Shown here: piece by piece, positions 3,379 through 45,842 of the stretch | How positions within the stretch are numbered: position 1 is the first letter of the stretch | How the letters are laid out: each line of letters opens with the position of its first letter | IMG/VR virus record: IMGVR_UViG_3300034682_000282 | Coordinates: 1 to 49,008 of that record | From: a virus | Direction: 5' to 3' (one strand) | DNA length: 49,008 bases | Notes under the pieces: model-generated | What the model was told of the DNA's origin: nothing | Databases searched by the model: none | The model's input: the letters and a program-made list of their open reading frames with translations, nothing else | Position numbers and translations under genes: made by a program

Positions 3379-4719
3379 TTAGTTGGTTGGGGCTTGCCAG
3401 TTACGCACGTCGATTTTACCAGTGACGGCGGCGGAGATTAGCGCAGTGCGGCGTTCTTGCATTAGGATGATTGCTTTCTCAGCCTTTTTTATCAGACTAT
3501 CAAATTTGATAGTTTCAGCTTCAAGGAAAGTGCAAATATCCTCCTGCTCAGAAAGTGGAGGCACAATTACAGGAAGATTTTCGAACCCCTGCTGATTAAC
3601 ATATACAAGAGTCGCTGCCGTGCCAATCAATTCAAAATATGATTTGGAAATTGAAACAATCTCTCTTAAAAATCCCGCTTTAATTTTTTTAGGTACGAAG
3701 GCTTGTAGTTGCTGATTAATTATCAAATCAACTAGATTTATCGACGCAATACCAAAATTACCAACACAGCTTGCAATCACTGAGCCGGCTCTCAGCTTTT
3801 TCGAGCCTGAAAATTTAGCTGCATCATCAGACACATAATAGTTAGTAGATTCAATGTAAGAGTTTTTCATATCCTCCATGGTAGCCCAAGGAGTACCGCT
3901 TTCTTCGTTTAATTCTGGTTTGTTTCGTTGAGGGACAAATATTTCAGACACATATTTGGCACGGGTAACTTCCCAATGCGCTGGCACTTGCCCCAACCAT
4001 TCCACACCGGAGTCTTTCATCGGGGCATCTGGGTTAAGGCCTTTGGTGACGGCGTGGCTGATCACGGCTTGGAGCTTTTCTTTGAGCAGTTGAACCAACT
4101 GTTGCTGCTTTTCAATCAGCGTGTCGATTTTTGCCGTTTCGTGGTCGAGGAATTGTAAAATTGAAATTTGTTCAGTAACACTAGGTAGCGGCAACCTGAG
4201 GGACTTTACAATACTTGAATTCAGCCCATGCATAATAGAGCCTTTACCGGCAATCTTTATTTGATTTGCAATCTCCGGTGATTCGTCGATTAGGAGTCGA
4301 AAAAAACTTGGTAAAATTTCGTTTTCTTTTACCCGGACTCTTAATAAGTGCGAATCTATAATTCCGATTTCAGCTGTTTTTGGAACAATAATACACTTCC
4401 CACTAGTACCCATCATCGTTATTAATATGTCATTTTCTATAACTTTATAGACAGTCATCTCTGAAAATTTTAACTCGCTAATTCGACGAGAACCTAAGCT
4501 AAAGTCACGCTGAATCACATTTTCTTGACCATAGACGCGTATACCATCATCTACCATGTCTTCTAGCTTTAAAGCACTACCAAATGGACCAATTTTAATA
4601 CCTTCGGCTCCATCTTTAAGTAGATAGCGAACTTGCTTTGCTTTCCATGAGGATGGTATTTGGCCGAACATTTCTATGTTAGAGTCTTTATACTCCAGAT
4701 ATGCCTTATAACGCCCCAT
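3379..4719 (-). CDS. hsdS: Type I restriction-modification specificity subunit (HsdS)
   Basis: HsdS directs methylation and restriction to a bipartite DNA site. The 446-residue protein has the usual two-repeat layout: target recognition domain 1 (about 15-175), a conserved helical spacer beginning with LPLPSVTEQ at 176-184, target recognition domain 2 (about 245-385), and a second conserved helix beginning PPLSEQ at 387. Both recognition domains look complete, so an asymmetric bipartite target is expected. The start codon overlaps the hsdM stop in a TAATG junction, which points to translational coupling. The recognition-domain DNA is more AT-rich than the flanking hsdM and hsdR, as is usual for exchanged specificity modules. 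The target sequence cannot be predicted from this. Confidence 0.92.
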   Translation of the reverse strand: MGRYKAYLEYKDSNIEMFGQIPSSWKAKQVRYLLKDGAEGIKIGPFGSALKLEDMVDDGIRVYGQENVIQRDFSLGSRRISELKFSEMTVYKVIENDILITMMGTSGKCIIVPKTAEIGIIDSHLLRVRVKENEILPSFFRLLIDESPEIANQIKIAGKGSIMHGLNSSIVKSLRLPLPSVTEQISILQFLDHETAKIDTLIEKQQQLVQLLKEKLQAVISHAVTKGLNPDAPMKDSGVEWLGQVPAHWEVTRAKYVSEIFVPQRNKPELNEESGTPWATMEDMKNSYIESTNYYVSDDAAKFSGSKKLRAGSVIASCVGNFGIASINLVDLIINQQLQAFVPKKIKAGFLREIVSISKSYFELIGTAATLVYVNQQGFENLPVIVPPLSEQEDICTFLEAETIKFDSLIKKAEKAIILMQERRTALISAAVTGKIDVRNWQAPTN

Positions 4720-9854: not shown

Positions 9855-9945
9855 TGAAGCGGCGCGCGAAAATTAAAGCATGAATGCTGAGAAATTTATA
9901 GTTTTTGAGTTTTTCAAATAGCGTAAGGATATTTCAAATAAAGAC
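9855..9945. other. Prophage terminus equivalent to the Mu right end (attR-type transposase sites)
   Basis: The terminus TGAAGCGGCGCGCGAAAA matches the outermost part of the Mu right end, as I recall it, at 17 of 18 positions. Further AT-rich stretches with TTTTTCAAATA and ATTTCAAATAAAG follow inward and could be inner transposase sites. Late genes are transcribed toward this end, as in Mu. Confidence 0.75.
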
Positions 9946-9950
9946 AGAGA

Positions 9951-9969
9951 AGCAGGGTTAAGCCCTGCT
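9951..9969. terminator. Hairpin at the end of the leftward late genes
   Basis: AGCAGGG and CCCTGCT pair in a 7-bp stem around a 5-nt loop that contains the stop codon of the last phage gene. On the + strand the stem is followed by TTTCTTTTT, giving a good terminator for rightward transcription. On the - strand the tail is weaker (TCTCTGTCTTT). It could work in both directions near the prophage edge. Confidence 0.55.
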
Positions 9970-10749
9970 TTCTTTTTGGTGTGGTAAAACGTCAGCTGAA
10001 CAAACGTATGAGGCAGCATCAAGCAATGCTGTGATTGCTAGACTGTGGTCTTGTAATGTCTCATCTTCGCGGTGTAATAACTCTCTGGCTGACTCTAACA
10101 GCGATAAAGCATAAGCCTGGCGTTCAGGGTCAGCAGAGTACGCCAGTTCCTCCAGTGTTGATATACGCTGCTTATGGTTGCTCTGAGTAAAACTCAAGGC
10201 GAACACATTCTTTACCCAACCCTTTAACGCATCCATTGCTGTTTTACCTCTCAGACTAACTGGCATCAGGAAAGCCAATACCATTAAAAAATTGTCTATG
10301 TTGCTCTGTGCAGAATACCAAGTCCACAGCCACCATTTATCGTTGCGCCAACTGCTGTTTGCAGGGCCAAAGTCGTTTAAACCAATCCAGTTTTGGTCGA
10401 CGTGCATTGTCAAATTGAAGAAGGCTTCGCCGCACATTAATACAACTATACATTTAGCAGGCCACAGCATGCGCAAATTAAAGGAAATGTGACCTATTAA
10501 AACACCGCCAGCTATTGCCAAGCAGGCGGTGGTCCAGATGTGGTATTGAATACCGACCTGGGCTGAGTACTTCAAACCCGACAGCATTTGAGCTGACGCA
10601 TAATGGTTGACCAAAAAAACAACCAACACGATTAAAGCGGTTAGTGAGTTTGATCGCAAGTCTCTGCGCATGACCATACCAAAAATCCACACAGCACAAA
10701 AACCTATTATCCATATAGCGTCAAGCAAGAATGCAGTCAGATTATCCAT
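9958..10749 (-). CDS. Membrane protein encoded next to the prophage end, unknown function
   Basis: The 263-residue protein has about four or five hydrophobic segments in its first 190 residues (for example near 5-26, 37-55, 72-90, 98-112 and 153-165), then a soluble helical C-terminal region of about 70 residues. I recognise no family. It is the last gene before the phage terminus, where Mu-like phages often carry accessory genes such as mom, but it has no likeness to Mom. It starts directly after a small secreted-protein gene and may be expressed with it in the lysogen. A role in superinfection exclusion or host-envelope change would fit its location but is only an inference. Confidence 0.7.
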   Translation of the reverse strand: MDNLTAFLLDAIWIIGFCAVWIFGMVMRRDLRSNSLTALIVLVVFLVNHYASAQMLSGLKYSAQVGIQYHIWTTACLAIAGGVLIGHISFNLRMLWPAKCIVVLMCGEAFFNLTMHVDQNWIGLNDFGPANSSWRNDKWWLWTWYSAQSNIDNFLMVLAFLMPVSLRGKTAMDALKGWVKNVFALSFTQSNHKQRISTLEELAYSADPERQAYALSLLESARELLHREDETLQDHSLAITALLDAASYVCSADVLPHQKESRA

Positions 10750-10750
10750 A

Positions 10751-10954
10751 TCAGCCTTTTACTTTTTTAACTTCTTCATCATCATCGCCGCCAGTACCGC
10801 CTGAGCCAGGGCCCATAGGTTGCATTACTGGTTCTTCTACGCAAATCCATTCACCTTCAGGTGTTTGGTAGCAAAAAGTCTCAGTTACAGCTGAAGCGCT
10901 GGCTGAAGACAAAAGCAACACTGCAATGGCTAAAGATAATTTCGATTTTTTCAT
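10751..10954 (-). CDS. Small secreted protein near the prophage end
   Basis: This 67-residue product starts with a clear signal peptide (MKKSKLSLAIAVLLLSSASASA), with likely cleavage after the Ala-rich stretch near residue 22. The mature part of about 45 residues has two cysteines (FCYQTPEGEWIC) that could form a disulphide. It ends in a Gly- and Asp-rich linker and a Lys tail. No family is recognised. The gene is preceded by a separate intergenic region with an operator-like palindrome and is followed within two bases by the membrane protein gene, so the two probably form a small accessory operon independent of the late genes. Confidence 0.65.
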   Translation of the reverse strand: MKKSKLSLAIAVLLLSSASASAVTETFCYQTPEGEWICVEEPVMQPMGPGSGGTGGDDDEEVKKVKG

Positions 10955-10979
10955 TTGTATCTCTCTAAATTAATTAATA

Positions 10980-10996
10980 GTGTACCAAATGTACAC
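10980..10996. promoter_or_regulatory. Operator-like palindrome upstream of the end-proximal accessory genes
   Basis: GTGTAC and GTACAC form a perfect 6-bp inverted repeat around a 5-bp centre (CAAAT), about 26 bp before the start codon of the small secreted protein. The core half-site TGTAC is the same as in the palindrome over the early promoter at 36277-36294, though the spacing differs (5 versus 8 bp). An AT-rich stretch next to it could be a -10 region. Confidence 0.45.
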
Positions 10997-11062
10997 ACAA
11001 AAAATACGACGAAACTCTGATATTGATGTTACGTCGCGGTGATATTGGCAAATAAGTAACGT

Positions 11063-11079
11063 TTACATAGGTCCTCCTT
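11063..11079 (-). other. Strong ribosome binding site followed by a start-stop minigene (ATG TAA)
   Basis: Just downstream of the 122-residue tail gene, AAGGAGGA (11072-11079) is followed by ATG at 11066-11068 and directly by TAA. No longer frame begins here. It is either a chance remnant of a lost gene or a minimal start-stop element. The surrounding stretch, 10955-11083, holds no gene. Confidence 0.4.
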
Positions 11080-11083
11080 AGGG

Positions 11084-11452
11084 TTACTCACCAATAGATA
11101 TATTGATACCAGGAAAAGAAAACTGTTGGTCAGTGGGCAGGTGAGCGTTGATTTGTGCCTCTGTCACCATCCATTCACCGCTGGCATCAAAAACCACTTC
11201 ACGCTCAGCGACTCCATCGACAAATTCAAAATGGAATGTTTTGCCTGGTGTGGCAAATAACCCCGCCAATGGAACAGCAAATATGTCGTTCAACGGCAAA
11301 CTGCACTCAACACGAAATACTGCCGGAGTGTTTTTATTGCCTACAAATCGCGGCACTATTTGACCATTAACAGATACAGCCATTGTGCCAATATACTGCG
11401 TTGTTTGCTGCGGCTGTAACAGCCCAGTGTTCAATCCACCTATCACTGCCAT
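11084..11452 (-). CDS. Putative small tail protein downstream of the receptor-binding protein
   Basis: The 122-residue product has no signal peptide or membrane segment, and alternating hydrophobic and polar residues suggest beta structure. It overlaps the end of the Asp-box tail fibre gene by one base and is the last gene of the continuous late cluster. That position suggests a fibre tip component or fibre assembly chaperone. I do not recognise a family. The next genes toward the phage end are separated by a gap of about 130 bp. Confidence 0.6.
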   Translation of the reverse strand: MAVIGGLNTGLLQPQQTTQYIGTMAVSVNGQIVPRFVGNKNTPAVFRVECSLPLNDIFAVPLAGLFATPGKTFHFEFVDGVAEREVVFDASGEWMVTEAQINAHLPTDQQFSFPGINISIGE

Positions 11453-12849
11453 TACGCTATCCTCATGTAAAAGGCCGCTGTGTGGGCCAACTCAAATCCT
11501 GAGGCTGGAACGTCCATGCCCACACCATGATGGCCAATAGAAAAGAACGCTCCATTGCGCATGAAATACGCCCCGTTTTTATATAAAAGCGCAGTTCTAT
11601 TACCAAGGTCTACGTGAACCAGGGAAAGTGGCGCTGCAAATCCAGCCTGCTCTTTATATACAGCTGAACCACCAACTGCCCCGCCATTAAACAACAAGCA
11701 GCCAGCGCCGTTTGATACGATAGAACACCATGATGCGATGACGTATGAACCTGTTGATGTAATTGTCGGCGCTGCATCTTTTGAGATACCCGTGACCATA
11801 AGCACTGGTGCTGTTTGCCCGCTTACGCCATCAGTTAAGTAAAGGCGGCCAAAGACAGGTGAATAGCACATTGCCAAACATGGAGTATTGCCTATTGAAT
11901 TAGTAATTTTTGCGGCTCCAAAACTGGCGCCATTGTCATCACTTACGAAGATAGCCGGTATATTTGTTGTTGAGTTAGCAGTACCACCTAATACAAACTG
12001 CCCACCTGTCGTGTGTGTCGCAACATATATCCTGATTGAAGAACCACCCAAAGCGACATCGCCACCAAATGTTGCGCCAGCGTCAATAGAGCGCCGATAG
12101 GTATGGTTACCACTACCAATCAAGACAATGTCACCATTTGAAGCAATCCAGGCTTGATTGTATGTGGTGGCCGATCCAACCGTAGCCCAAGTCAGGCCTC
12201 CATCCGTACTGCGCTTACAAATGGTTTGCGTCTGCAGCAACCAGACCGAAGCATTGCCTACACCTTTTATATGCTTAATAGCAGTCTGCCCTGCAGTACC
12301 TGTTGGAATGCCTGCGCTGCCATTGACGTCAGCCCATGTTTGGCCTCCATCAATACTGCGCCACACCTTTGTTAAGTCGGCAGACGATCCACGCGTTACA
12401 TAAATGATTAAGCTGTTGCCATCTGTATCGACAAATTGACCGTCTGCCGTGCTACCACCTGCATTATGTGCCAATGAAAAACCGACTGTGTAGTCAAAGA
12501 CTGGTTGCAGCTCAGGGGCAAAATCAGTTGTTTCGTAGTAACCAGCGCGTAAGTACGTACCTTTTGCAGCTGTGTATTTAATCGGTAGTGCTGCGTTTAG
12601 TTGGATAACAGAGCCGACGCTTATATCACCCCGTAACTTTTGACTTGCGTGAGCAAGGGCAAAAATTTCAGACAGAGGTGTATTTTCGTCTGCAGCAGCT
12701 GCACGGGCTTCAACAGCGTCATCTAAGTCAGATTCGTCCATCAACGAGCTGGATGCTAACACTCTGAGCTTTTGCAATTCACCAGGCGATGCACTGCCAT
12801 CTGCTGCAGATAAAAGCCCCTGAATTATTGTTCTTAAATTTGCGTTCAT
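11452..12849 (-). CDS. Tail fibre or receptor-binding protein with sialidase-type Asp-box repeats
   Basis: The 465-residue protein has a helical N-terminal region (about 1-80) that probably attaches to the tail. After it come four Asp-box motifs spaced about 45-50 residues apart: SIDGGQTW (165-172), STDGGLTW (214-221), SIDAGATF (254-261) and SDDNGASF (303-310). Such repeats form beta-propellers in sialidases and related carbohydrate-binding or glycan-cleaving proteins. Its place near the end of the tail cluster fits adhesion to, or trimming of, a surface glycan. I cannot identify sialidase catalytic residues, so binding is the safer reading. It overlaps both neighbours by a few bases. Confidence 0.72.
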   Translation of the reverse strand: MNANLRTIIQGLLSAADGSASPGELQKLRVLASSSLMDESDLDDAVEARAAAADENTPLSEIFALAHASQKLRGDISVGSVIQLNAALPIKYTAAKGTYLRAGYYETTDFAPELQPVFDYTVGFSLAHNAGGSTADGQFVDTDGNSLIIYVTRGSSADLTKVWRSIDGGQTWADVNGSAGIPTGTAGQTAIKHIKGVGNASVWLLQTQTICKRSTDGGLTWATVGSATTYNQAWIASNGDIVLIGSGNHTYRRSIDAGATFGGDVALGGSSIRIYVATHTTGGQFVLGGTANSTTNIPAIFVSDDNGASFGAAKITNSIGNTPCLAMCYSPVFGRLYLTDGVSGQTAPVLMVTGISKDAAPTITSTGSYVIASWCSIVSNGAGCLLFNGGAVGGSAVYKEQAGFAAPLSLVHVDLGNRTALLYKNGAYFMRNGAFFSIGHHGVGMDVPASGFELAHTAAFYMRIA

Positions 12850-13256
12850 TGCACACCACCTAATGCGTAAATCTCAACATCATCTAATCGGCCTGCCAGA
12901 CCATCTATATCAGCAATATCCAGGCGAATGTCTGCTTCGCCGCTAAAGTCCTTTTGGCCTATTTTCCGCGACGTCAGGAACTGGCGGGCGTATGTCGCTG
13001 TGTCTCCTGCAGTACCAATTGCAGCGTAAGCAGCGGCCAAAGCCTCGTTCATTTCGATCTGGATTTGTTCCACCTGTGATTTCATCAACGCTGTGGCTTC
13101 GCGGATTTGTTCAGCGGTTTGCGCTGCATCCACTTGGCTATTGAATGCCTGAACAGTGGTATCTATTGCAGCGGCCAGCTGTTGAAGCTTTGGCAGATAT
13201 TCACCGCCCCGGTCCAAGGTTGTCAGCGATATACCTGGTATTGGTAGGTACTCCAT
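12846..13256 (-). CDS. Putative tail tip or fibre-attachment protein
   Basis: This 136-residue, mostly helical protein carries a likely coiled coil near residues 30-90, rich in Ala, Gln and Glu. It has no signal peptide and no recognised family. It lies between a probable tail tip protein and the Asp-box fibre gene, with a 4-bp overlap into the fibre gene. A linker between tail tip and fibre is likely from position alone. Confidence 0.6.
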   Translation of the reverse strand: MEYLPIPGISLTTLDRGGEYLPKLQQLAAAIDTTVQAFNSQVDAAQTAEQIREATALMKSQVEQIQIEMNEALAAAYAAIGTAGDTATYARQFLTSRKIGQKDFSGEADIRLDIADIDGLAGRLDDVEIYALGGVQ

Positions 13257-14102
13257 TTATGCCTCCCTCACTACATACTTAATCGTGTAGTTGTTAAATG
13301 CTGAATTAATGAGTGCTGGCAGCGCGGTAAACTTTGCAGCCATCGCATGTTCAATTTCCTTGATACCACCTAATTCGGGGTAAAGGCTGATAAACCAGTC
13401 TTTGGATATCCCCACATCCTGAAAGGCCGCTGACAGGTGTGGACGTTCCGACTCAAGGATGTAGTCCAAACTAAAAGCCAACTGGCGGGTTTTGGGTTTA
13501 GCAGCAGCAAAGACAGAACCTGCAGCCGTCTCTTTTTGCTTCGCTGTAGTTTGCCAGGCGAATTCACTGCCCCAGCTAAAATTGAAGGATGGTTGAAACG
13601 TAACCCCCATGTAGATGCGATCAAACTCATGTATGCCGTCACGGCCATATTCATCCTGCAGCGTCATTCGGCCAGAAAACGCGAATGCGTCAGAAAACCA
13701 CAACTGGCTGAACTTGAACGGCCATGTATCAAAGGCACTGGCCACCAGAGGGTCTACCAACCAATCCAGTTCGCCCAGGGTTTTAGTCGGTATTGCATCA
13801 ATCAGTCCAGAATCAAAGAGTTTTATGCCGCTGCAATTGAGCCCGTCGAAAAGCTCCAAGCGCCATTTTGCGCTATTGCTTAACCAGTGGCGGTAGAGGA
13901 CAAAACCGCTTAGCAGTGTCAGCTCCGGCAGATTAAATTCAATCGCCGATACCCCTGATTCATCTGGCGTAATGCCTGCGGTCAAGCTGCGGCCATAAAG
14001 CTGACTGTGAGTTAAAGGCAGGGTTGAAATTTCTGTGCCGGTGACTGCCACCAGCTCGGCTTCATCCCATTTATTTTTTAGCAGCAGCCTTACTTTATTC
14101 AT
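13257..14102 (-). CDS. Putative distal tail protein
   Basis: The 281-residue product is rich in aromatic and beta-type segments. It has no signal peptide or membrane segment. It follows the 478-residue tail tip protein with a 4-bp overlap and precedes the fibre genes. In D3112- and B3-type transposable siphophages several proteins of unknown sequence family fill the same stretch after the tape measure and build the tail tip. The assignment rests on gene order. Confidence 0.6.
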   Translation of the reverse strand: MNKVRLLLKNKWDEAELVAVTGTEISTLPLTHSQLYGRSLTAGITPDESGVSAIEFNLPELTLLSGFVLYRHWLSNSAKWRLELFDGLNCSGIKLFDSGLIDAIPTKTLGELDWLVDPLVASAFDTWPFKFSQLWFSDAFAFSGRMTLQDEYGRDGIHEFDRIYMGVTFQPSFNFSWGSEFAWQTTAKQKETAAGSVFAAAKPKTRQLAFSLDYILESERPHLSAAFQDVGISKDWFISLYPELGGIKEIEHAMAAKFTALPALINSAFNNYTIKYVVREA

Positions 14103-15535
14103 CGGATCACCTCCACTGTCGCTGTGTCAAAAAGCAAGTCGTCTGTAATGCGGGTGATCACAGCGCTTTGGCCACCAACAAAGTAGCGCGGGTAATGAAT
14201 GGTCACGGTCTGTCCTAAATCCAGATTAAAAGGGGCAGCAAAAGCTGAAAACTCGTAGACATGGCGAGGCACAGAGGCCCAGACGGCGCGACGTGCGGCC
14301 TCTGATTCGGCGTCGGCCTTTAGTACAATCAGAGTGCTGGCTTTGATTTCTGTCGCGTCTGGGTGATCAACAGAAACACCAGCGTTATCAACATTGACTT
14401 TGCTTTCAGGTTGTTCATACGCCGTGGCCAGTAGCGGTGTGGTTTCACGCACTGAGCCTGCCAGACCATCCGCCTGCGGGGTCCAGTTTCTTCTGTAGCC
14501 CAAGGCAACGGTCTTTGCCGGAGCAATGCGCCGCCTTGGCCAGAGTGTGTCATCCTCAATATGGTCTGCAACGAGGGCTTGTGTCGGTGCGCCTACACCA
14601 TTAAACCAATACCACTGCAATTGGCCTGCGCGGGTGAAATACCAGGCAGCAGCAACACTGGCACTAATGTCATCCAATACGGCGGATAAGGTTTTATCTC
14701 CCGTGATGTAAACCCCTAACTGATATTCAGGTAACGCAGAAAGTCCAGTAGGTTCAGCAAGATCAAATCGGGTGGTCAGATAGGTAATCATCTGTGCTGC
14801 GGTCTGAAGCCAGACGCCTGCTGGTTTTGCTCCATCGACATCCGCAGTCACACGACCTTTGGCGTTATTGGTCAACGTGAACGTACCATTCGCCAGATTC
14901 GCTGTGTACGGTATAGACACGCCATTTTCGCGTACTGCAGTAATGGCATGGATCGCACCGTCGTGCACCTGGTAGGTTTTAGTCGCTTCATTTATAAGTA
15001 CTGGCGACACGTTAAAACACCTGCCCAGGCAAATAGGTGCAGGTTGGCCAGCATTCGGCCCCACACTAATTAATGTGCTTTGCACCTGTCGTTTTAGTAG
15101 CTCTGATGGGTCGCGCAGAGTCAATTGCGCCGTATCGTAACTTGTGGCTTTTAAAGCTTCTGCCACGGCTGATACGACTATGCCAAATTGGCTCAGCGGC
15201 CAACGTGCATCGCCACAACGGATCACAACGGGTAAGCCACCGACATTGACACTATCTACCAAAGCCGCCAGCTCATCATCCATAAACAACTCAATACTTG
15301 TTTGAGCTGTCGTGCTGTAACCTGTAAATAGCTCTGTTAATTCACGGCCCCATGTGCCGACTGACAGAATGGTATCCTGATAAGGGGTTAGAGCCGGTGC
15401 ATCGCCTGGCGCAGTTCTGTAAGGATGCGTAGAGCGACGAACCGTATTCACTACACCGCCATCGCGAGCCTGAAACTCCACAAGATAGCAGCGGTCTGCG
15501 CCAGGTGTTTGGATCCATTCAGCAAACGTCATCAT
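14099..15535 (-). CDS. Putative tail tip or baseplate hub protein
   Basis: The 478-residue protein is encoded directly after the tape measure gene, overlapping it by 4 bp (ATGA). This is the usual slot for tail tip or hub proteins in siphophages. The N-terminal 200 residues look like beta-rich modules, and the C-terminal part has a hub-like flow of short beta segments. I recognise no catalytic motif. It probably forms part of the tip complex at the base of the tube. Confidence 0.6.
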   Translation of the reverse strand: MMTFAEWIQTPGADRCYLVEFQARDGGVVNTVRRSTHPYRTAPGDAPALTPYQDTILSVGTWGRELTELFTGYSTTAQTSIELFMDDELAALVDSVNVGGLPVVIRCGDARWPLSQFGIVVSAVAEALKATSYDTAQLTLRDPSELLKRQVQSTLISVGPNAGQPAPICLGRCFNVSPVLINEATKTYQVHDGAIHAITAVRENGVSIPYTANLANGTFTLTNNAKGRVTADVDGAKPAGVWLQTAAQMITYLTTRFDLAEPTGLSALPEYQLGVYITGDKTLSAVLDDISASVAAAWYFTRAGQLQWYWFNGVGAPTQALVADHIEDDTLWPRRRIAPAKTVALGYRRNWTPQADGLAGSVRETTPLLATAYEQPESKVNVDNAGVSVDHPDATEIKASTLIVLKADAESEAARRAVWASVPRHVYEFSAFAAPFNLDLGQTVTIHYPRYFVGGQSAVITRITDDLLFDTATVEVIR

Positions 15536-18500
15536 GCCATCAGTCTCCGGCTTTCCTGCAGCAGCTGCTGTGTGCGCTGCAATTCAGTCTGCAGCTGCCG
15601 GTTTTGCTGCGCAGACTGCGCTTGCGCTGCAGAGGCTTGTTGCAACTGCTGCTGCAGTAAATCATTGGTGCGCTCTAAAATCGGGTTCGTGACCGGTTCG
15701 CCTACGTTGATTGGCGCAGTGCCAACGCCAGTTCCTGGTGATACTGGTGCTGGATTCACAACAACAGGCGGGATCACAACTGGCGGCGGTGGATTCACAA
15801 CAACAACCGGAGCAGGCATTGCAGCAATTGCATTAGCGATAGACTGCATGCCGCTATTGAGTGCATTGACTGCAGCAATTTGTTTTTCTGCAGCTGCCAG
15901 TAACTCGCTTTTTGCGGTTTCAAAAGTCGCCGTTAACTTATCCAGCTGCGCCGCTTGCTCAGCACGGGCCTGTGCATCTAACTCTGCCAACTTAATTTGC
16001 AGCAATTGCAGCTCAGTCACTGTGCCTGTTTGCAAGGCTAGTAACTGTTCCTGGTATTTTGCTAACTCCGCTTTTGCTGCAGCTTCTGCGGCCAGCAGCT
16101 CTGCCTTGGCTGTGGCATCTAGCCCTGAAAGCAGCAGCTGTAATTGCTCCAGCTCTTTGATAGCAGCAGTTTGCAGTTCAGCATCCGCTTTTTGATAAGC
16201 CAGTACTTCACGTGGTACTGAGGGGGCTGCACCTATAGAGTTTCCAAAGCTTCTGTAGGCGTTTTGTACTTGTGCAAAGATGGCGGCATATTCGCTACTA
16301 CCACTAGCCAGGTAATCCTGTGCCAAGCCTAAATAGGTCGAGCCGACAGATTCCAGTTGTTTTGCGGCGTCCGCATCACCACCACGTGCTTTACGCAGGA
16401 GGTCGTTAAACTGCTTCTGGGCTTCAGCGAATTGATCACCCATTTTTGCTGGGCTTAGTTCAGACAGTAGCAATGCATCTGCAGCACTGGATAACTGTTT
16501 TGCTGCATCTTTTAAGGCATTGTATGCAGATAAATCTGCATCGTAGCGCTCCTGTGCAGCGCTGATCAGCTGTTGATTAGCGGCAAGCTCGGCATTGTAA
16601 CGATCCACAATCGCTTGCTGTAACTGACCGACACTGTTGATTTGATCTAAGACTGAGCCTTTGCCCAACTGTGATCGCAAATCGCCAATCCGGCTATTCT
16701 GATAGCCAACTTCATTCCAACTGGAGCCCTGGCGGCGCAAATCCAGAATGCTGGAGGCGATGCTTTCTTGCACGCTACTAAGCGCTGACTGTAACTCAGC
16801 GAAAGACGAATTAAGGCCGTCCAGCGTTGACTGAGCTTGTTGAACCAAGGTGCTGTTTTGCGCCAGCTCAGCCTGATAGCGGCCCATCATCGCAGCCTGC
16901 AGCTGCTCAATAGTTTTGATTTGAGTCGCTAAATCGCCTTTACCTAACTGGCCGCTCAGGCCGTCTACTTGTTGCTGTTGATAGCCAACCTCATCCCAGC
17001 CGGCTATCTGACGCTTAATGTCCAGAATTGAACTACCAATGGTGCTACTGACAGCACTGATGCTATCTGTCAGGGCTTTATACGTTGACTGCAAATCATT
17101 GACTGCGCGCTCATGTTCACTGGTCAGTGTCTGCATACGCTGCGCGGTATCTTCGTTGATCGCCTCCAGCTCCTCAGCGATTAAATCAGCACGTTTACGG
17201 GCATACAGACGTTCTAACAGCGTAGTGTCGGCTCCCAGTTCTGCTGCTTCAGCAATTTGTGCGTCATACCAGGATTGTAGTTCTGCCATGCTGCGCTGAA
17301 ACGGGCTCATGTCGAGGCTTGCAAGCTCGTCACCGATAGATTTAGTCCAGTTAGCTAACTCGGCTGCGTGCTGCTCTGCTTGGTCATAATACTGGTCCAT
17401 AGCCTGATTGAGTTTCATCATCGCAGCAAAGGTTTGTTGGCCTGCTTCAGTCGTTAGATCCAGACTGGCAACAAAGGCTTTAAATGCCTCACGATTTGCA
17501 GGCATTGCAATCCCAAGACTGGCAAACTGAGCCTGAGCTTGTTTAGTCAAATGAGCCATTTTTTCCTGCTCAGTGAAGAATGCAGAAAAGTAGTCACTGG
17601 TGGCGCTACTGAATTCTTCAATGCCGCCCATTAATTCGATGAGTGACTGAGCTACGTCTATTTCAAGCGTTTTTGTCATGCCGCTAAAGCGCGTCAGCTG
17701 CAAGCCTAAACTGTCCATAGAGGCATTAAAAACAGCTTGTTCCTGAGCAACCCTGATCAACGTATCGTAGAGCCCTTCACCCATCTGCTGAAACTCAGCA
17801 ATGCCTGGTACTAAGTACTTGGCCATCAAATCGCCCTGCTGGCTAAATATCGCCTGCAGCTCTTCTTCGATCTCTTCTCCGGTCAGGTCTTTAAAGCTTA
17901 TGTTAGGCAGTTTGATTACAAAGTTTTCTAAGTCTTTGGTTGTGGTCAGTCCCAGCAGTTTTACTGCATCCGTGACTGAGTTACCTATGTAGCTGAATAC
18001 GCGGCCAAACTCGGCGCGTATATCCTCATCAAGAGTTTTATATGAAGTTTCCTCATAAGTCTTTTTGCTCAAACCAAATGCTTTTTTCTTAGTGACTTTA
18101 ATAGTGTCGTAGAGTGTGGCTTTGACTAAACCACTACTTAAAATGTCACCGAGTTCCTGAGCCGCAAAGCTAATGCCGCTGTCCACCAACTCTTTTTTGG
18201 TTGAACCAAATAAACCGCCAAGTACTTTGTTAGTGATGCCGGAAAGCAAGCCGCCCAGCATGTTGTCAACTGCGGCGCCAATCACACCACCAAGCACCAG
18301 AGCACCGGCAGTACTGCCAAGTTGCACGTTGTAGTCTTTGCCCAAATCGCCTTGGTAACTGCTTTCATCAAATTTGCCATAACTGGCGACCAGGTTAACT
18401 GCGAGCTTTGCAATACCGGCATTCAGTGCCCGGATTGATGCGTTGATTGATCGCAGCTCTGAGTACTGATCCAGCTCCAGGCTTTCGATACGCTCTAAGC

Positions 18501-43914: not shown

Positions 43915-44187
43915 ATGAAAGTTATGAAAAATCAGTACGGCTATATGGACGGTTTAGGCAAAGCCCTCCTGGTGATTGTTATCGTTTTAGTGGTCATTGC
44001 TGCTTTGCTTGGCGCAGCCATTGGCGCTTTTGCCACTGGCCTGCCGTCAGAACTCACCGAAATGAAGGAACACTGCGAATCGGATCTGCCACGGGATGAA
44101 GTTTGCGTATTTGTCGCAATACCTGAGCAGCAAGACGCCTTCTGCCCTCAAGCCGAAGTATTTAACCAGGCAGAGGTGCTGAAATGA
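43915..44187 (+). CDS. Small single-pass membrane protein
   Basis: The 90-residue protein has one strong transmembrane segment (about 16-42, rich in Val, Ile, Leu and Ala) and a C-terminal domain of about 45 residues with three cysteines, probably outside the cytoplasm. AGGAG lies 9 bases upstream. It overlaps the next gene by 4 bp. An early-expressed membrane protein could act in superinfection exclusion, which is an inference only. Confidence 0.6.
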   Translation: MKVMKNQYGYMDGLGKALLVIVIVLVVIAALLGAAIGAFATGLPSELTEMKEHCESDLPRDEVCVFVAIPEQQDAFCPQAEVFNQAEVLK

Positions 44188-44849
44188 AAACAGTTATTAA
44201 CGCAGTGGCCGATCTGGTGACTTGGGGCAGTGTATTTGATTACCTTTTCTGGAATGAAAAAGAAGGCTGGTTTTACTCAACTCCAGAGCAATCTGCACCA
44301 CAGCGAGCAGTGTGCTCCAGGGAACAATTTGAAGTAGAGAAACGCCGTCAAAATCCATTGTTTCAGTGGATTTCATGGCATCAGCCAACCGAAGACCATC
44401 GCCCACTTACATACCCACCAAACAAAGCAATTATGGGCTGGTGGTGCAGTGGTTACAGTGGCCGTGATGCAATCATTTGTGCACTGGTCGACGCATCAGA
44501 CGAGCCTACCGCGCAGGCTGCTGTTTTAAAGGATTGGCCTGAAGCAGAAAGATGGCGTTTTTGTGAAGCCCGCGATAACACGAACTTAGGCGATAGGTTT
44601 CCGCTAAAAGCTTGGATGCTGGAGCGTATGCCAGCCACTCCTGCAAAGCCTGCTATAGCTGAGCCAATAAAAGTGGTTTGTCGGTTTAGAAGCGGCACGT
44701 ACATCACAAACAAGGTCAATGGAAAGCAAGCTTCTAATACTGCAGGAGCTGACGGCGCTGTAAGCGCGCTGGGTAGAAAGCTGCTGCCCGATCAGGAATT
44801 CGCTGTAACTAATGTTGATGGTGATAACTGGTTAATCATCCCCCAATAA
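44184..44849 (+). CDS. Early protein, unknown function, ending at the first hammerhead
   Basis: The 221-residue protein is rich in Trp (WGSVFDYLFWNEKEGWFY, then QWISWHQPTEDHRP and MGWWCSGYSGRDAI). The C-terminal 60 residues look like a separate beta domain (SALGRKLLPDQEFAVTNVDG). No family is recognised. Its TAA stop (44847-44849) is followed directly by the first base of the ribozyme at 44850, so cleavage removes the message downstream of this gene. Confidence 0.6.
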   Translation: MKTVINAVADLVTWGSVFDYLFWNEKEGWFYSTPEQSAPQRAVCSREQFEVEKRRQNPLFQWISWHQPTEDHRPLTYPPNKAIMGWWCSGYSGRDAIICALVDASDEPTAQAAVLKDWPEAERWRFCEARDNTNLGDRFPLKAWMLERMPATPAKPAIAEPIKVVCRFRSGTYITNKVNGKQASNTAGADGAVSALGRKLLPDQEFAVTNVDGDNWLIIPQ

Positions 44850-44907
44850 GCGAAACGCCCAGCAGTATGGGGCGTCTGCCAGTGGTGGTTCACTGGTACT
44901 GATGAGC
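44850..44907 (+). ncRNA. Hammerhead-type self-cleaving ribozyme, copy 1
   Basis: In order, the RNA has GC, GAAA (44852-44855), stem III CGCCC/GGGCG (44856-44860 with 44870-44874, 9-nt loop) and UC. Stem I UGCCAGU/ACUGGUA follows (44877-44883 with 44892-44898, 8-nt loop), then CUGAUGA (44899-44905) and GC. This is the full hammerhead core in the permuted order with stem II open (type II). Cleavage is expected after C44876. Stem II is only a GC/GC 2-bp helix. Loop I (GGUU, 44887-44890) can pair with AGCC at 44908-44911 beside stem II, a plausible stabilising contact. It starts right after the stop codon of the upstream gene. Confidence 0.85.
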
Positions 44908-44936
44908 AGCCAATAGTTAAACGAGTGGAGTTGAAT

Positions 44937-45218
44937 ATGAGTAACTTAGATTTACCGAATCTTGAACTGAAAGAAAGCGGTATTACGAATGAGGATGGTG
45001 CCCAACTGATCCTGCAATGCGAAGCCTGGTTTCAAGCCAGGATTGACCTTCTGAATGAAACTGCTGAGCACATGAAGAAGGCTGAAACTGTTGATTTGAA
45101 TGGTACGGAAATAACTGACCCTAAAGTTATTAAAGGTATGAGATATGGCTTCCTTACTGCTGTCTCGTTACTTGGAAAATTTCCACTGAAACTTGGTGGC
45201 CTAGCAGAAACAGAATAA
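44937..45218 (+). CDS. 93-residue protein enclosed between two hammerhead ribozymes
   Basis: The start at 44937 follows GGAG by 6 bases. The product is small, acidic and mostly helical (GAQLILQCEAWFQARIDLLN, then VIKGMRYGFLTAVSLLGKF). I recognise no family. Its stop (45216-45218) directly abuts the second ribozyme, and its 5' leader begins with the 3' half of the first. It is therefore the only gene on the 362-nt RNA that double cleavage would release. Confidence 0.65.
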   Translation: MSNLDLPNLELKESGITNEDGAQLILQCEAWFQARIDLLNETAEHMKKAETVDLNGTEITDPKVIKGMRYGFLTAVSLLGKFPLKLGGLAETE

Positions 45219-45269
45219 GCGAAACGCCCAAGGGCGTCTATCCAGCGTTGTGGCTGGGTACTGATGAGC
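45219..45269 (+). ncRNA. Hammerhead-type self-cleaving ribozyme, copy 2
   Basis: It has the same order as copy 1: GC, GAAA (45221-45224), stem III CGCCC/GGGCG (45225-45229 with 45232-45236, 2-nt loop), UC, stem I UAUCCAGC/GCUGGGUA (45239-45246 with 45253-45260, 6-nt loop), CUGAUGA (45261-45267) and GC. Cleavage is expected after C45238. Stem I differs from copy 1 at several paired positions with pairing kept. Loop I (UUGU, 45248-45251) can pair with GCAA at 45271-45274, the equivalent contact to copy 1. Its CUGAUGA contains an ATG in frame with gemA. Confidence 0.87.
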
Positions 45270-45287
45270 AGCAAGAGGTTTTACCAA

Positions 45288-45842
45288 GTGAGCGCAGATA
45301 AAAAACGACTGATTGGCCTGATCCATGTAGCCAAAACTGACCTGGGCATGGCGGAAGAAAGCTACCGTGCCCATTTGCAGCACTATGGCCAACATAACAG
45401 CTGCAAAGACATGAATTTAAGCCAGTTGATCAAGGTGATGGACGGTATGACGGCTTTGGGCTTTAAATCCAAGCCAGCCAAGGTTGGTAGACCAAAATCA
45501 GGCCGTTTAAGCCCTAAAACACCTATAAATGCAGACGAGCGCAGTGTGATCCGTGCCATTTGGATATTCATGCACCGCAACGGCTTTATTAAAGATGGTA
45601 CCGAAACCGCGTTAAACGACTTCGTGAAGCGCCAGACCGCTGAACTGAACAACGGTATAGGTATTAATGAGGTGGAATGGTTGCAGCAGGATCAGGCTAT
45701 TCCGGTGCTGGAATCACTTAAAAAGTGGTGCCGCCGCTGCATGTTCAACGCACTGCAGAATCAAGGCTATTCATTGTTCCCTCAGATCAGCTATTTCCAG
45801 CTTTTAGCTAAGTGGGAAGAGATTCACGGAGCCAAACCATGA
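45288..45842 (+). CDS. gemA: GemA-like regulatory protein (Mu gp16, DUF1018)
   Basis: The protein resembles Mu GemA/gp16: KKRLIGLIHVAKTDLGMAEE, then SYRAHLQHYG and LSQLIKVMDGMTALGFK are family features. In Mu it affects host gene expression and DNA topology. The GTG at 45288 (184 residues) is preferred because AGAGG lies 9 bases upstream and downstream of the ribozyme. An in-frame ATG at 45264 lies within the ribozyme's CUGAUGA and has no good binding site. It overlaps the next gene (ATGA). Ribozyme cleavage leaves its mRNA with a 5'-hydroxyl and a structured leader. Confidence 0.82.
   Translation: MSADKKRLIGLIHVAKTDLGMAEESYRAHLQHYGQHNSCKDMNLSQLIKVMDGMTALGFKSKPAKVGRPKSGRLSPKTPINADERSVIRAIWIFMHRNGFIKDGTETALNDFVKRQTAELNNGIGINEVEWLQQDQAIPVLESLKKWCRRCMFNALQNQGYSLFPQISYFQLLAKWEEIHGAKP

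Follow-up and report, generated by a model that had tools for sequence, protein, structure and literature searches.

Two type II hammerhead ribozymes upstream of gemA in a Mu-like phage, with pairing between loop I and the 3′ flank

Natural type II hammerhead ribozymes were first reported by Perreault et al. in 2011 (PMC3088659), and by that paper's account they share a conserved pseudoknot in which loop I pairs with the 3′ tail beside stem II. In other type II hammerheads than those described here, disruption of the pseudoknot led to a drastic loss of activity and a compensatory mutation brought the activity back; in-line probing is mentioned there among data that are not shown (PMC3088659). 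The same paper describes multiple or tandem hammerheads around single prophage genes, and the terms "stop codon" and "recombination" are absent from its main text. A further report, citing its references 25 and 26, notes an enrichment of hammerhead and twister ribozymes in the vicinity of genes of Mu-like phages (PMC10085705). The locus that we describe resembles the ribozymes of PMC3088659, as they are presented there, in architecture, in the contact, in the short stem II and in having multiple copies that flank single prophage genes, but it lies in a different phage. The Mu-like setting agrees with PMC10085705, whose text, as far as it bears on this point, deals with gene association only and not with covariation between paired copies or with cassette exchange. 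The loop I-flank contact is already published (2011) and its novelty is low, and its occurrence here confirms published structural biology. The surroundings of the ribozymes bear on why phages retain hammerheads at all. Swapping of genes at hammerheads in related phages looks less familiar; a search by titles and the beginnings of abstracts, with supplements and most subscription papers outside its reach, returned no paper on gene exchange at phage hammerheads; this is the part that deserves further study.

The window, i.e., the whole stretch of 49,008 nucleotides that we analyzed (IMG/VR record IMGVR_UViG_3300034682_000282, positions 1 to 49,008), represents a Mu-like phage and carries, in order and on the + strand, a transposase (phrog_310), a DNA transposition protein (phrog_296), GemA (phrog_286/PF06252) and a late activator (phrog_532). 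Two elements on the + strand, copy 1 at 44848-44915 and copy 2 at 45217-45277, each matched the full Hammerhead_II covariance model (RF02276) with 64.7 bits against a gathering cut-off of 37, and no further Rfam RNA family reached gathering level within the window. The structure line of RF02276 leaves the flank AGCC unpaired, so the model itself is without the pseudoknot. In both copies stems I and III are closed by loops and stem II is open, which is the type II architecture. A hammerhead core comprises CUGANGA, GAAA, the A15.1-U16.1 pair and a cleavable H17, and both copies have CUGAUGA, GAAA, A15.1-U16.1 and C17. In copy 1, stem II (GC/GC) pairs 44850-44851 with 44906-44907, stem III pairs 44855-44860 with 44870-44875, and the predicted cleavage site 3′ of C44876 is followed by the stem I arm (44877-44898). 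Its loop I is GUGGUU (44885-44890), of which U44886-U44889 would form the 5′ strand of the pseudoknot, and the 3′ flank AGCCA (44908-44912) would supply the other strand. The corresponding parts of copy 2 are stem II (45219-45220 with 45268-45269), stem III (45224-45229 with 45232-45237), a predicted cleavage site 3′ of C45238, the stem I arm (45239-45260), loop I GUUGUG (45247-45252, with U45248-U45251 as the predicted 5′ strand) and the flank AGCAA (45270-45274) as the predicted 3′ strand. Lengthening of stem II by the flanking bases in place of a pseudoknot was ruled out, since A faces A in both copies and stem II remains at 2 bp. Minimum-energy folds of the isolated copies lacked stem II and favored a local hairpin on the 3′ side of stem I, which speaks against the explanation preferred below. 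The folding energies of the two copies were unremarkable (z −0.96 and −1.69), and folding energy was dropped as uninformative.

Both ribozymes are tightly packed against genes on the + strand. Copy 1 directly abuts the stop codon (TAA, 44847-44849) of a 221-aa gene (44184-44849), for which we found no family match, and copy 2 directly abuts the stop codon (TAA, 45216-45218) of the 93-aa gene that lies between the ribozymes (phrog_12368, 44937-45218), for which tblastn against viral contigs found no relatives. gemA (PF06252, 45288-45842) follows with a probable GTG start at 45288, and its ribosome-binding-like stretch AAGAGG (45273-45278) overlaps the last two bases of the copy 2 pseudoknot strand. 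An in-frame ATG at 45264 sits within the conserved ribozyme core CUGAUGAG but is less likely to be the start of gemA, because a related contig, L243, retains AAGAGG and GTG ahead of gemA without a ribozyme there.

With a probability of about 93%, we consider that these elements are type II hammerheads that lie among the early genes of a Mu-like phage, ahead of gemA, and are shaped by a pseudoknot between loop I and the flank. A pseudoknot of 4 to 5 bp, formed by loop I and the bases just 3′ of the 2-bp stem II, would hold stem I alongside stem II, and by the precedent described in PMC3088659 this docking would give the catalytic core its active form. Self-cleavage at the two predicted sites would then divide the early transcript on either side of the 93-aa gene. 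As a type II hammerhead is cut between its two closed stems, the stem III hairpin would terminate the upstream product, whereas the downstream product would start with the stem I hairpin. Cleavage in the cell may in this way process the transcript into single-gene mRNAs and affect their stability or translation, and we infer that the two cuts separate, and perhaps protect, such mRNAs.

To place the pair among its homologues, we scanned viral contigs and genome contigs with sequence patterns, the resulting set being a sample. The nearest relative among the matches listed was L243, whose upstream gene and GemA are 92% and 95% identical, respectively, to those of the window at the protein level. 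In the slot between them, an unrelated 91-aa gene replaces the 93-aa gene, and a single ribozyme is found (L243 4664-4740 versus window 44850-45280). This ribozyme is a hybrid: its stem III part is that of copy 1, with one letter different in 27, whereas its stem I arm agrees with copy 2 in 22 of 22 letters and with copy 1 in 10 of 22, and its flank is that of copy 2. The junction lies within GGGCGTCT, next to the cleavage site. Likewise, L298 has a single hybrid ribozyme, with the junction in CTGATGAGCAGCCAA, where L294 has ribozyme-gene-ribozyme. L260 and L254 represent an empty and an occupied version of one site, with 98% identity on one side of it and 97% on the other, and the extra 694 bp hold a DUF2786/DUF7168 gene and begin just past the pseudoknot strand. 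Additional empty/occupied sites emerged when L260 1742, L271 9196 and L122 2327 (reverse-strand, 0-based) were compared with L072, L245, L254, L275, L280, L283, L290, L293, L297, L300 and others. In all 38 empty/occupied comparisons among the matches listed, the extra DNA (218-1541 bp) was located at or beside the 5′ or 3′ edge of a ribozyme, and gemA was the next conserved gene in those comparisons that we read gene by gene.

We also counted breaks of homology, leaving out L001 and L002 (copies of the window), L244 (which duplicates L243) and L287 (from the contig that also holds L243). Among the matches listed, breaks occurred at ribozymes in 541 of 690 comparisons and at control gene boundaries in 3168 of 5624. 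When related loci were collapsed, the controls were made 75 nt wide and only boundaries within 3 kb were used, the counts among these matches were 535/656 for ribozymes and 2384/3884 for other gene boundaries. The break frequency was higher at the ribozymes in 42 of the 59 clusters, lower in 13 and equal in 4 (among the matches listed), giving a Wilcoxon p of 4e-5 that overstates the certainty because the phages in the set are related. The excess may be read as support for exchange at ribozymes, not as proof, since the clusters are still related to each other and their selection depended on the presence of a ribozyme. Taken together, these comparisons raise the possibility, to which we give somewhat less than even odds, that type II hammerheads, pseudoknot strand included, serve transposable phages as modular seams: they would abut the preceding stop codon, end shortly before the next ribosome-binding site and recombine with one another through their conserved core, with accessory genes dropped in, swapped or lost and with mRNAs cut free that bear a hairpin at both ends.

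A rival reading holds that the ribozymes are chiefly short conserved seams for the exchange of accessory genes, RNA cleavage being secondary or relaxed. The hybrid ribozyme and unrelated gene of L243, the hybrid of L298 opposite the ribozyme-gene-ribozyme arrangement of L294 and the excess of breaks over other boundaries within 3 kb all fit this reading. However, an intact catalytic core and a covarying pseudoknot (see below) indicate that selection acts on the fold of the RNA. Breaks are also frequent at other gene boundaries, variation in the slot ahead of gemA may have causes of its own, and the relatedness of the phages inflates the apparent significance of the excess. We regard a role chiefly as exchange seams as rather unlikely.

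The packing of genes against ribozymes seen in the window recurs in the homologues. These counts are confined to the 136 distinct ribozymes of the first pattern, as the second pattern itself demanded AA before GC and a count over 191 ribozymes was dropped. Among the matches listed, a stop codon that closes an open frame of 60 or more codons exactly abutted the ribozyme in 19/136 and fell within −11 to +1 nt of the ribozyme 5′ end in 88/136; a start codon lay 10-25 nt past stem II in 44/136, and in 15/136 the longest downstream frame had the AUG of the core as its first start codon. Such proximity could mean that the pseudoknot works as a switch, in which a ribosome ending at the abutting stop codon or starting at the overlapping binding site blocks the fold and cleavage reports low translation. 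The stop codons that directly abut both window ribozymes, the overlap of the copy 2 flank with AAGAGG and the frequency of nearby stop codons in homologues are in line with a switch, but compact gene packing by itself accounts for the adjacency and copy 1 sits farther from its ribosome-binding site, which makes the switch improbable in our estimate.

We then return to the preferred reading and to the pairing on which it depends. The preliminary description had proposed four pairs in each copy, between GGUU (44887-44890) and AGCC (44908-44911) in copy 1 and between UUGU (45248-45251) and GCAA (45271-45274) in copy 2, the latter including one U-G pair; letters and coordinates proved correct for both copies. 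It had also placed the partner strand 1 base after stem II in copy 1 and 2 bases after it in copy 2, a difference that turned out to be an artefact of the register chosen for copy 1. Separate registers for the two copies were rejected, as a single one, in which positions 2-5 of the loop pair with positions 2-5 of the flank, suits both copies and the family. In this register the predicted pairs are U44886-A44912, G44887-C44911, G44888-C44910 and U44889-G44909 in copy 1, with U44890-A44908 as a fifth, and U45248-A45274, U45249-A45273, G45250-C45272 and U45251-G45271 in copy 2. Of the claim that the bases differ between the copies while pairing is kept, one pair therefore stands as compensated (G44887-C44911 versus U45249-A45273), whereas the other three are identical. 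At least four contiguous pairs, G-U allowed, arose by chance in 21% of trials with random 6-nt loops and 8-nt flanks, and in 22% when pieces of the window served as the source. At such a rate per copy, two copies alone amount to only about 1 in 20, which is weak evidence. The predicted energy of the loop-flank duplex was −3.7 kcal/mol for copy 1 and only −1.1 kcal/mol for copy 2, so the copy 2 pseudoknot is weak on paper. Judged from the sequences, the case for the pairing rests on the homologues and not on the two copies in the window.

The first scans, of viral and of genome contigs, yielded at least 137 distinct ribozymes that satisfied the stem criteria (among the matches listed, the two in the window and that of L243 included), and addition of a second scan raised this to at least 188. 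We aligned the 77 listed ribozymes with a 22-nt stem I arm (alignment A1, 72 distinct rows) and found 86% of the cells of the pseudoknot helix paired. In these 72 rows, the second pair (columns 11-35) was G-C in 56, C-G in 6, U-A in 2, A-U in 1, G-U in 2 and other in 5, and the third pair (columns 12-34) was G-C in 60, C-G in 2, U-A in 1 and other in 9. Changes on both sides were present in 9/72 rows for pair 11-35 and in 3/72 for pair 12-34, while the first and fourth pairs varied on one side only and were unpaired in 15/72 and 11/72 rows, respectively. These unpaired rows weigh against the contact, though some of them are ribozymes whose stem II is longer and whose register is shifted. Sliding the partner strand by 1-3 columns lowered the pairing of the whole structure, a measure that includes stem I, from 93% to at most 56% among these matches. 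This alignment of homologous elements, which had been suggested as a check, shows the pairing retained through compensatory changes and bears out the earlier view that selection acts on RNA structure. The cleanest natural experiment on the compensated pair is the comparison of window copy 2 with L285, which shares its locus with L110 at 97%. L285 has two ribozymes with the arm of copy 2 except for C in place of U in loop I; the flank has G in place of A, so that C faces G in both ribozymes.

Among the matches listed, 101 of the 103 distinct ribozymes with a 2-bp stem II had a stem I arm of exactly 22 nt, and such a fixed arm length would be expected if loop I has to reach the flank. All four pairs formed in 89 of these 101 and were incomplete in 12, whereas re-dealing the flanks among the ribozymes gave a mean of 75.9 full matches and a maximum of 82 in 1000 shuffles. 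Much of the four-pair agreement stems from the common GUGGU/AGCC consensus, for which 76/101 is the expectation after re-dealing. It is nevertheless very improbable that the complementarity arose by chance or only reflects conservation of GUGGU and AGCC for other reasons. The match rate per copy and the reach of the re-dealt flanks favor such a reading, but the observed count exceeds every shuffle and, in ribozymes with another base than G at loop position 3, the flank changes too, giving C-G, U-A and A-U in several phages.

The preliminary description had further proposed that this tertiary contact accompanies the very short stem II. Among the matches listed, a loop-flank helix of at least 4 bp was present in 93/103 ribozymes with a 2-bp stem II (shuffled mean 79.3), in 35/43 with a 3-bp stem II (19.2), in 7/38 with a 4-bp stem II (6.0, i.e., no more than in shuffled sequences) and in 2/4 with a 5-bp stem II (0.6). 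The trend agrees with the proposal, though loop size is confounded with stem II length in these matches, since 21 of the 38 types with a 4-bp stem II have stem I arms of 17 nt and hence tiny loops.

We note a dense array of ribozymes in L302 (record G001 of L064), a virus contig of 57 kb, where 24 Hammerhead_II matches above the cut-off lie within 7.6 kb (9932-17520). Neighboring ribozymes there are mostly separated by one short open frame, with its stop codon at or beside a ribozyme, and some of the loops read GUCGCG and face an AGCGA flank, which represents a change from G-C to C-G within one phage. Together with the breakpoints inside ribozymes, this array offers material for weighing mRNA processing, cassette exchange or both. 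Finally, a ribozyme with the exact stem I arm of copy 1 was found in the genome of the Rheinheimera pacifica type strain (L154, ∼4580-4650), upstream of a gemA-like gene, pointing to the host group of the window phage.
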